NCBI GenBank assembly: GCA_958296225.1
Contig: OY282456.1
Location: 1,178,001-1,242,000, forward strand
Origin: an uncultured Dehalococcoidia bacterium
Lineage (GTDB): Bacteria; Chloroflexota; Dehalococcoidia; Lucifugimonadales; UBA3495
Direction: 5' to 3'
Length of the DNA: 64,000 nt
Shown piece by piece: positions 20,016-23,265 of this stretch. A program made the position numbers and the translations under genes. The stretch's first letter is position 1; each line of letters starts with the position of its first letter. Under the pieces are notes generated by a model that saw only the letters and a list, made by a program, of their open reading frames with translations, was not told the DNA's origin and searched no databases.

Positions 20016-20993
20016 TCAGAACAACCCCGCCAAATCCACCCGCCCCGCCAGCAACTCGGCCATCCGTTCCGCCTTGTGCACTTTATGGGCCGCCGCCGCC
20101 CCCAACAGCTCGCCCACGGCATCGGCGGTGGCCACTGTTCCGCCGTCAACCAGCAGCACCGGAACATCCCGCTTGGCCGCCTCCACCCGGATATACTCCG
20201 TGGGCCGCGCCCCGCCGGTCAGCACCAGGCATCGCGTATCCTGCATCAGAGACGCCAACTGAATGTCGGGCCGCTCGGCGCGGGTGATTACCGCCTGGTG
20301 CGCGAAACGCCCGAAGTAGCCCTCGCCGGAGTCCATAATATTGCCGCCAATCAGAAAGCGGTCAACCCAATCCTCGCCATCCGACGGTTCCAACTCCCAG
20401 CGCCCGCCCAGTTCCTGAGCCAGTTGCGTCATCGTAAGCGATAACATAGGCCGGTCTTCGGGCAAAGCGGCGATTACCGGCACGCCCGCGCCCGCCACTT
20501 CGGAGAGAATCCCCCGCGCCTGCTGCCCCCGATAGCGGGGCACCTGGTTGATTATTACGCCGGCCAGCGCCTCGCCCAGCGTAGCCACGCTGCTGGTCAC
20601 CGCCACCGCCGACAGCTCGGCATCGTACTCGAAAACTGCCACCACCCGCGCCGACAACCGCTCCGCCAACCCGGCAGTCAGTCCCGATGCGACGCCCGCG
20701 CCCCCGGCGGGGTTGGCAACCTCCACTACCACGTGCTCGCTGATGCCGGTCAGCGACCGGACGGCGTTGGCCGCAGCATCCAGCGCGGCATCGTCGTCGC
20801 TGGCCGTAACCGCCACGTCGCCGCGAAAATGCCGGGCGAAGTAAGCGGCATCAGGGTCGGTGCGGCCGGCCGGCGACAGCGGTTTGCACACGGACACGCT
20901 GGCCCCGCTCTGGCCGATAAGGGTCGCCAGGCCCGCCGCAATGGCCGTCTTGCCCGCGCCGGGCCGATGGGATGCTACCAGGAGGATGGCCAT
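20016..20993 (-). CDS. P-loop (BioD/Pta-N-like) and DRTGG-domain protein
   Basis: 325 aa. LVASHRPGAGKTAIAAGLATLI is a Walker A P-loop like those of dethiobiotin synthetase and the N-terminal domain of long phosphotransacetylases; EVANPAGGAGVASGLTAGLAE and VIINQVPRYRGQ also fit. The C-terminal half (FLIGGNIMDSGEGYF, AVITRAERPDIQLASL, LVLTGGARPTEYI, VPVLLVDGGTVATAD) is a DRTGG domain. This two-domain form without the acetyltransferase domain is widespread in Chloroflexota and archaea and is thought to be regulatory, sensing or linked to acetyl-phosphate metabolism. The exact role is not known. Confidence 0.85.
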   Translation of the reverse strand: MAILLVASHRPGAGKTAIAAGLATLIGQSGASVSVCKPLSPAGRTDPDAAYFARHFRGDVAVTASDDDAALDAAANAVRSLTGISEHVVVEVANPAGGAGVASGLTAGLAERLSARVVAVFEYDAELSAVAVTSSVATLGEALAGVIINQVPRYRGQQARGILSEVAGAGVPVIAALPEDRPMLSLTMTQLAQELGGRWELEPSDGEDWVDRFLIGGNIMDSGEGYFGRFAHQAVITRAERPDIQLASLMQDTRCLVLTGGARPTEYIRVEAAKRDVPVLLVDGGTVATADAVGELLGAAAAHKVHKAERMAELLAGRVDLAGLF

Positions 20994-21021
20994 AGGATAC
21001 TGGCGTTGTTATAGCCGGAGC

Positions 21022-21312
21022 CTATTCCGCGCTGACCGGCACACGAAACACCGGCAGGCCGTCTGCATCGTGGGTGTGGTTCGCCAACGCCTGCAACAAC
21101 TGCTGGTTGCCCCGGCGTATCTCCTCTTGAAGCTCTTCCCTAAGCTCGCGGAACCCTTCCCGCATATCGGTGGACAGTTGGTCAACCTGTTTGCCGAGCT
21201 GATCAACCCGATTGCTGAGCTTGCCCAGCCAATAGGCGCCGCCGGCAGCAAGCAAGAGCAAAGTTACGATGCCGACCATCGCCGTGATAGCGGCCGGGTC
21301 GAGGCTAATCAT
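21022..21312 (-). CDS. Single-helix membrane protein with coiled coil
   Basis: 96 aa. One N-terminal transmembrane helix (AMVGIVTLLLLAAGGAYWL), then a heptad-rich coiled coil (SNRVDQLGKQVDQLSTDM, ELREELQEEIRRGN) and a short polar tail. Such proteins often act as oligomerising anchors. Nothing else identifies it. Confidence 0.6.
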   Translation of the reverse strand: MISLDPAAITAMVGIVTLLLLAAGGAYWLGKLSNRVDQLGKQVDQLSTDMREGFRELREELQEEIRRGNQQLLQALANHTHDADGLPVFRVPVSAE

Positions 21313-21345
21313 GGCAAATACCTCCGGCGAGATAGCGGCAGTGGC

Positions 21346-22047
21346 CTAGTAATCATCCACTCGATTCTCAATGACCATGGGGTCAAAGCCGGGCGGGAAT
21401 CTGGTGGTATCGTCCCACTTGCCCATCGTCATATCGCAGCGGTGCAGGCTGGCCTTGTCGAAATTCGCGCCGCGCAGGTCGGCCATAACCCACATCGAAT
21501 CGCGGATTTTGGCGGCGGTAAAATCCGCCCCGTGCATCACCGCCCGGCTCACGTCGGCCCCGTTCATATTGGCGCCCTGCCAGTTGGAGTTGGTCAGGTT
21601 GGCCGAGCGCAGGTCAACCTCGATGGCGGTAGTCTGGCTGCAATCGGCCCCGGTCAAGTCCGTATTGAGGAATGACGCCCGGTTCAGACGCGACCACTGC
21701 AAGATGGATTCCTGCATATTGGACTGTTTCAGGTCAGCCCAGAACAGGTTAGTATTACGCAGGATGGTGGTGGCCATTTGGGCCGACGACAGCGTTGCGC
21801 CGCCCAGGTCGGCTCCGGTCAGGTCGGCGGCCCGTAGGTCGGTACGGGCCAGGTTGGCTTTGGTCAGCCGGGCGTCGGCCAGCGTAGCCCCGCGCAGGTC
21901 GGCCTCCCGGAGGGAAATACCGGCCAGGTCCAGCCCGCGCAGGTCGGCGACGCGCAGGTCCAGCCGGCCATCCGGGTTCTCGGCGCGCCATGCGTCCAGG
22001 GCGGCTTTGCCCGCGCGGACGACTGCCACGTGTTGCGGATTAGCCAT
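21346..22047 (-). CDS. Pentapeptide-repeat protein
   Basis: 233 aa beginning one base after the selenoprotein stop codon. From residue 30 on there are many A(D/N)LxX repeats (ADLRGLDLAGISLREADLRG, ANLARTDLRAADLTGADLGG), forming a right-handed quadrilateral beta-helix. The family includes Qnr/MfpA DNA mimics that protect gyrase, but most members are of unknown function and the presence of this fold alone does not imply that activity. There is no signal peptide or membrane segment. The ATG at 22047 directly follows the TAG of the upstream gene, so the two are translationally coupled. Confidence 0.88.
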   Translation of the reverse strand: MANPQHVAVVRAGKAALDAWRAENPDGRLDLRVADLRGLDLAGISLREADLRGATLADARLTKANLARTDLRAADLTGADLGGATLSSAQMATTILRNTNLFWADLKQSNMQESILQWSRLNRASFLNTDLTGADCSQTTAIEVDLRSANLTNSNWQGANMNGADVSRAVMHGADFTAAKIRDSMWVMADLRGANFDKASLHRCDMTMGKWDDTTRFPPGFDPMVIENRVDDY

Positions 22048-22359
22048 CTAGTTATTGCCTGCCATCATCTCGTCTTCAACGTCAAAGACCCGTTCCGCAA
22101 CGACCATTTTGAGCTCGTTGACCTTCTGGTAACTGGGGTATTCCTCCGCGTCCTCAAAACGGTCAAAAATCTTTTCCCCGTCCAAGTAAATCTCAAAGCG
22201 GCCCCTATCGGACGGAGTGAGCTTCACCGCGATGTCGCCCACGTTTTGGGAGCGCCAGAACTCAATCGCCAGCCACGTGGCGAGGCCGTGGTAGCCTCAA
22301 GGGACGCAGTAGACGATGTCCACTTCAACTTTGCCAAACTCTGACCTGGTCATTGCCAT
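22048..22359 (-). CDS. selW: SelW/Rdx-family selenoprotein with in-frame UGA at the redox site
   Basis: 103 residues counting selenocysteine. From ATG 22359 (GGGAG upstream) the frame reads GKVEVDIVYCVP, then TGA at 22299-22297, then GYHGLATWLAIEFW..., GRFEIYLDGEKIFDR. The Rdx family has CxxC or CxxU in this exact context ((V/I)xYCxPCxY...A.WL), followed by GxFEVxxDGxxIFSR, so the UGA sits where Cys or selenocysteine belongs. The downstream sequence can form a hairpin (CCACG/CGTGG, 9-nt loop beginning with G), which is a candidate bacterial SECIS element. Without UGA readthrough only 20 residues would be made. The protein is a small thioredoxin-like redox enzyme. A sequencing error remains possible. 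Confidence 0.82.
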
Positions 22360-22432
22360 TCGTGTCGCTCCCGTTAGTCGGTCGTTGAGCAGGGGAATCC
22401 GCTTGGGGCGGCCCGGTGTGCCCGGCATGGTT

Positions 22433-22858
22433 TTAGCCGGTCGCCACGGCGCTGGCCTGGCCCACGGCGGTTTTGTCGCCGTTCTGGTTTTCGCAATAAA
22501 CGTCCACCGTAACCAGCGTGCCGCCGTCGTCCTGCGCCTCCCGGCTGTTGACCTGCCCGTGGATGGTAACGGTGTCGCCGTCCTTAACGGGGCGCAGGAA
22601 CTTCAGGTTTACGTTGCCGCTGCGGTGGAAGTCATCGGCGCCGATGAACTTACGCATGGCCTCGGTGCAAAAAGCGATGCTCATGCGGCCCGAGGCGATA
22701 GCATAGTTGGTGCCGAGGCGTCGGGCGGCCAGCTCCGGGTCGTTGTGAATGTTGGCCCGGTTCAGGATGCCGCAAGCCTCAAACTGGTTGATGACTTCCT
22801 GGGTGATGTGCTTGGTGATGACGGGCAGCGTTTCGCTGTCTAGCCTTGCGGATGCCAT
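22433..22858 (-). CDS. MaoC-like hot-dog dehydratase, subunit 2
   Basis: 141 aa. The N-terminal part (HITQEVINQFEACGILNRANIHNDPELAARRLGTNYAIASGRMS, read in pieces) has the MaoC-type pattern with IHNDPELA and a GxxMS helix end. VNLKFLRPVKDGDTVTIHGQV and TVDVYCENQNGDKTAVGQA are the strand-rich half of the hot-dog fold. The usual hydratase signature is D-x4-H; here N-x2-H-ND is present, so the active site may be altered. It overlaps the upstream hot-dog gene by 19 bases, suggesting a two-subunit (R)-enoyl-CoA hydratase-like enzyme. Confidence 0.72.
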   Translation of the reverse strand: MASARLDSETLPVITKHITQEVINQFEACGILNRANIHNDPELAARRLGTNYAIASGRMSIAFCTEAMRKFIGADDFHRSGNVNLKFLRPVKDGDTVTIHGQVNSREAQDDGGTLVTVDVYCENQNGDKTAVGQASAVATG

Positions 22859-23265
22859 TTCTTGCCCAACTCCTCCGGTTTCTTCAACTGATAGGTACGC
22901 ATCTTCTCAATGAGCCGTCCGTCCTCGTCAATGGCGGTCGCTTCGATGACCAGGTACGGGTTCTCGCGGCGGATGTACTTGTCGTGAATCCGGCCGGTAA
23001 CGCGAATCGTCTTGCCGGGCACGGGCGGGTTGTGCAGCTCAATCTCGTTGCCGGCGTTCACGCTGCCGGTCTGGTCATTGTACGCCAGCGACAACGAAGT
23101 GGCGTCGTGCTTCACGGCGATGGTGGGAAACACCGCATCGGGGTCGTCAACGGCCCGCCGGTAAAGGTCCACCATCTCCTGGGTCAGCACGTACTCGTAA
23201 GAGCCAAGCTCCTCCCCAATCTGAACCTCGTCGTAAACGAACAAGGGCAGCTCTTGTTCCGCCAT
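22840..23265 (-). CDS. MaoC-like hot-dog dehydratase, subunit 1
   Basis: 141 aa. YDEVQIGEELGSYEYVLTQEMVDLYRRAVDDPDAVFPT resembles the N-terminal hot-dog of split MaoC or FAS1-like hydratases; GNEIELHNPPVPGKTIRVTGRIHDKYIRREN and LVIEATAIDEDGRLIEKMRTYQ complete the fold. Paired hot-dog proteins of about 140 aa each are seen where one carries the catalytic site and the other is structural, as in mycobacterial HadAB. The downstream partner begins before this gene ends. Confidence 0.7.
   Translation of the reverse strand: MAEQELPLFVYDEVQIGEELGSYEYVLTQEMVDLYRRAVDDPDAVFPTIAVKHDATSLSLAYNDQTGSVNAGNEIELHNPPVPGKTIRVTGRIHDKYIRRENPYLVIEATAIDEDGRLIEKMRTYQLKKPEELGKKWHPQG

Follow-up and report, generated by a model that had tools for sequence, protein, structure and literature searches.

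The window, a stretch of 64,000 nucleotides from the genome of a SAR202-like Chloroflexota bacterium, carries on its minus strand a gene of the Rdx family interrupted by one in-frame TGA. This gene lies in a same-strand block at 20016-23265, in the order MaoC2-MaoC1-SelW-pentapeptide-DRTGG. The features of the block are listed below with the evidence for each in brackets; positions with a plus sign are nucleotides downstream of the UGA.

20016-20993, minus strand: DRTGG / AAA_26 protein, often next in the block (PF07085, PF13500; synteny)
21346-22047, minus strand: pentapeptide-repeat protein, downstream neighbour (PF00805, 120.7 bits; synteny)
22048-22359, minus strand: selW-like gene (Rdx family, CxxU), with predicted selenocysteine (Sec) at residue 21 (translation, PF10262, TIGR02174, orthologues)
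22266-22283, minus strand: best-supported candidate SECIS stem-loop, +14 to +19 UCGCCA with +26 to +31 UGGCGA (compensatory changes, shuffles, energy)
22273-22291, minus strand: previously proposed stem-loop, CCACG/CGUGG, +6 to +24, not supported as SECIS
22297-22299, minus strand: in-frame TGA, predicted selenocysteine codon, residue 21 (homologue conservation and Sec apparatus)
22306-22308, minus strand: TGC codon of Cys18, the first CxxU residue (sequence)
22368-22372, minus strand: GGGAG, likely ribosome-binding site 8 nt upstream of the ATG (sequence; inference)
22433-22858, minus strand: MaoC/FAS1-like dehydratase, upstream neighbour (PF13452, PF01575; synteny)
22840-23265, minus strand: second FAS1-like dehydratase-region protein, overlapping the gene at 22433-22858 (PF13452; synteny)

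Translated through the TGA, the open reading frame from ATG 22359 to the TAG at 22050-22048 encodes 103 residues. The TGA at 22299-22297 is its sole in-frame interruption, with 20 codons before it and 82 after. The read-through product begins MAMTRSEFGKVEVDIVYCVPUGYHGLATWLAIEFWRSQ... and places a CxxU motif, C-V-P-U, at residues 18-21 near the N terminus. In profile searches it matches Pfam PF10262 (Rdx) with 51.1 bits (cut-off 22.6), aligned over profile positions 1-68 of 74, and NCBIfam TIGR02174 (CXXU_selWTH) with 40.7 bits (cut-off 34.2); judged by these scores, the Rdx/SelW-family match is not due to chance. The closest solved chains are Rdx proteins; 2P0G, 2FA8 and 2OBK, for example, share the family by sequence (E about 1e-5), and the 2P0G chain, as aligned, has Cys where the protein encoded here would have Sec. 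The first-pass annotation of this DNA had described an Rdx gene starting at ATG 22359, with a TGA at 22299-22297 in the context C-V-P-UGA and 82 family-matching codons in frame beyond it; both the coordinates and the codon count were reproduced.

The surrounding genes are also conserved. The ATG of the pentapeptide-repeat gene directly abuts the SelW stop codon, and a pentapeptide-repeat gene lies 3′ of SelW in all 22 relatives examined, while the MaoC pair, whole or partial, lies 5′ in 16 of the 22. The unbroken adjacency of SelW and the pentapeptide-repeat gene suggests a functional link, and a shared function is possible. No description of a link between SelW and a pentapeptide-repeat protein appeared in the papers found.

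The interrupted frame was compared across 118 relatives from genus to order level, 99 of which contain a match. In the named collection, the relatives are metagenome-assembled genomes of SAR202, Dehalococcoidia and other Chloroflexota. All 14 genomes of the same genus, this one included, have an orthologue with exactly one internal TGA at 80-99% identity, and an open reading frame with one in-frame TGA is also found in nearly all genomes of the same family. When further Rdx copies are counted, the codon could be read in 126 homologous genes. An alignment of homologues at this codon, which had been suggested previously as a check, finds TGA in 121 of them and a Cys codon (TGC or TGT) in the other five.

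The five Cys-type homologues (L082, L083, L084, L085 and L086) are nested among Sec forms in the SelW tree, which implies at least three changes between the two states. Two near-complete genomes whose listed SelW copy is a Cys form (G077 and G106) are without SelB; two other Cys-form genomes (G083 and G090) still hold the Sec apparatus, and G078 carries one Cys copy plus one Sec copy. A stem comparable to the SECIS-like hairpin described below was not found in the Cys homologues, except for a weak one in L083. The remark that SelW-like proteins have very few or no Cys homologues among Sec-using bacteria (PMC1794560) agrees with the five Cys codons counted here.

The genome that holds the window is a single contig of 3.97 Mb and encodes the complete apparatus for selenocysteine. 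A tRNA-Sec with anticodon UCA scores 66.4 bits (cut-off 47), and profile searches recover SelA at 547.7 bits (cut-off 268), SelB at 351.8 bits (cut-off 242) and SelD at 372.5 bits (cut-off 125), their loci being dispersed around the chromosome. All four components that the first-pass annotation had named as necessary for its reading (selA, selB, selC and selD) are thus present in the same genome. The selD gene (L078, G000:C1:3437634-3438557) likewise contains an in-frame TGA, placed at the active site (SHCAGUAAK), which probably makes SelD a second kind of selenoprotein in this cell. Among the relatives, every genome at least 90% complete with a listed TGA form has a SelB or tRNA-Sec match, as read by eye from the matches listed. 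Several incomplete genomes with a TGA form yielded neither, plausibly through missing contigs. Within the sample searched, the Sec apparatus is carried by SAR202-like Chloroflexota and by most of their order.

These observations bear on three readings of the TGA that do not involve selenocysteine. The first is that a Cys-type Rdx gene was misread in sequencing or assembly: one base change from TGC or TGT would suffice, and correcting it would restore a common CxxC form, seen in five distant relatives. However, the identical TGA recurs through the genus and, in separately assembled genomes, in 121 of 126 homologues; since independent assemblies share it, a base-call error is ruled out and an artefact is virtually impossible. 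It is likewise vanishingly improbable that the lineage reads UGA throughout as another amino acid, such as Trp or Gly, by a global change of code. The frame is indeed open solely with UGA readthrough, but other forms of the gene have Cys at this position, the full Sec apparatus is present, and the sole UCA anticodon among the four tRNA loci looked at belongs to tRNA-Sec. Moreover, the terminal stop is TGA in 19 of 126 Rdx genes, including some, such as homologue L025, that also have the internal TGA. As UGA is both sense and stop in one gene, context decides its meaning and no global reassignment has taken place. Such context-dependent reading of UGA is the role of SelB and the SECIS element.

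The third reading holds that the gene is a pseudogene, or that the UGA is a true stop yielding a 20-residue peptide, and standard gene callers would indeed end the gene at the TGA. Purifying selection nevertheless persists 3′ of it: over aligned codons, 29 synonymous and 7 nonsynonymous changes separate this gene from L024, and 22 and 13, respectively, from L025. In 120 of the 121 TGA homologues the frame past the TGA continues without a stop over 69 to 92 codons, and in the remaining one over 59; this third reading is very improbable.

Where the signal for selenocysteine insertion lies was sought in the sequence 3′ of the UGA, for which the first-pass annotation had proposed a stem-loop at 6-24 nt and a search for a bacterial SECIS. 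In the Rfam search around the UGA no SECIS family was matched, and the 40-60 nt that follow this codon were, when folded, not clearly more stable than shuffled sequences. As fold energy is uninformative here, comparative evidence was used. In a first group of relatives it supports a stem pairing +15-19 with +26-30 (CGCCA/UGGCG) beneath an apical loop, CGUGGC, which in the window lies at 22277-22272 on the minus strand, 19 nt from the UGA. The 5-bp core has an energy of -6.0 kcal/mol, and a sixth pair in the window copy, U14-A31, brings the stem to -7.9 kcal/mol. The bacterial SECIS model asks for a loop of 3-9 nt with G at loop position 1 or 2, a stem of 4-16 bp, a distance of 16-37 nt from the UGA and -7.5 kcal/mol or lower (PMC13188914). 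The stem of 5-6 bp, the loop, the spacing and, with the sixth pair, the energy all fit these constraints, whereas the primary sequence is without any match to an Rfam SECIS family. A hairpin downstream of the UGA does exist, at +15 to +30 and with covariation; the particular stem that the first-pass annotation drew, at 6-24 nt, has none.

When the inner pair +20/+24 is counted, 97.9% of cells in the first stem are paired, and no synonymous-codon shuffle equals it. This control exchanges synonymous codons between sequences and breaks relatedness as well as pairing, so the excess over shuffles is inflated. The two groups of relatives were also defined by their sequence at +17-18 and +27-28; this favours each stem within its group, and the first-stem pairs +17/+28 and +18/+27 consequently carry no weight. 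The outer pair, +15/+30, shows compensatory changes among four Watson-Crick types, and this variety of pair types argues for repeated events. The weight of the evidence for the hairpin is carried by this outer pair together with the second group of relatives, described below.

A different element could in principle serve the same selenocysteine codon. The +6 to +24 stem pairs in the window sequence and, at -6.1 kcal/mol, roughly matches the 5-bp core in stability; a competing local fold beats the +15 to +30 hairpin in energy as isolated RNA, so that the lowest-energy fold is a different hairpin. In the +6 to +24 stem, however, no pair has changed on both sides and pairing is no better than in synonymous shuffles, whereas the +15 to +30 stem shows compensatory changes as well as pairing above shuffles. 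A SECIS formed by the +6 to +24 stem or by some other fold is accordingly unlikely. The compensatory changes found in many homologues reveal a bacterial SECIS by comparison.

The second group extends this picture within the genome itself, which holds three Rdx genes, all with TGA. The window copy (L023, C1:1200051) and the SelW-like gene L076 (G000:C1:1567594-1567851, in-frame TGA) have the stem +15-19/+26-30 with the loop CGUGGC or CGUGGA. In the third, L077 (G000:C1:1281652-1281882), also SelW-like with an in-frame TGA, the stem is +18-21/+27-30 with the loop UGGAU, displaced by 3 nt on the 5′ side. The same stem and loop are found in many order-level relatives outside the first group. Compensatory changes occur there at all four pairs, 98.5% of cells are paired and slid controls fail; covariation is stronger in this stem than in the first. 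The evidence leans towards two SECIS registers within one family and one genome, presumably served by one SelB, with a hairpin that has slid while the protein motif remained unchanged.

The segment 540-575 of another homologue, L119, can form the shifted stem with its four pairs and all but one of the five +15-19/+26-30 pairs. L119 may thus mark the switch between the registers.

Reading frame, family, conserved TGA, full Sec apparatus and covarying hairpin are directly established, and the gene almost certainly encodes a bacterial SelW-like selenoprotein in which the UGA at 22299 is read as Sec by way of SelA, SelB, SelD and the hairpin 15-30 nt downstream. The first-pass interpretation of this codon as selenocysteine gains support from the apparatus, the conserved TGA and the SECIS-like stem; we infer the insertion at residue 21 from these sequence features. 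In the proposed mechanism, SelD would make selenophosphate and SelA would convert Ser-tRNA(Sec) to Sec-tRNA(Sec), which SelB would bring to the ribosome at the UGA through its presumed binding of the downstream mRNA hairpin. The product, a putative thioredoxin-like Rdx protein with a predicted Cys-x-x-Sec redox centre, is probably a cytosolic thiol or selenol oxidoreductase.

Three selenoproteins are listed for Chloroflexi in a comparative study (PMC1794560), and SelA and SelB co-occur in most symbiont bins according to a report on sponge symbionts (PMC5649159). In the literature on selenoproteins of SAR202 and Dehalococcoidia, judging by titles and passages, no description of this gene was found. 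SelW genes of SAR202-like Chloroflexota are prone to truncation or omission by standard annotation.

The bacterial SelW-like (SELENOW-like) CxxU selenoprotein of family PF10262 is itself well documented, from the Sargasso Sea (PMC1088965), the GOS metagenomes (PMC2398784) and a review (PMC13188914). The protein encoded here resembles it in family, in the CxxU motif with UGA at the second motif position, and in the bacterial-type hairpin just downstream and inside the coding region; there is no difference in kind. SelW-like CxxU proteins are among the commonest selenoproteins of marine metagenomes, and since SelW-like proteins already rank first in abundance among the selenoproteins reported there, a specialist would accept the gene without surprise. 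The finding is sound but ordinary, the kind of protein being already known from marine bacteria. What it adds to the known kind is a named lineage and a conserved block with a pentapeptide-repeat protein, and the two SECIS registers are the sole part that goes slightly beyond expectation.
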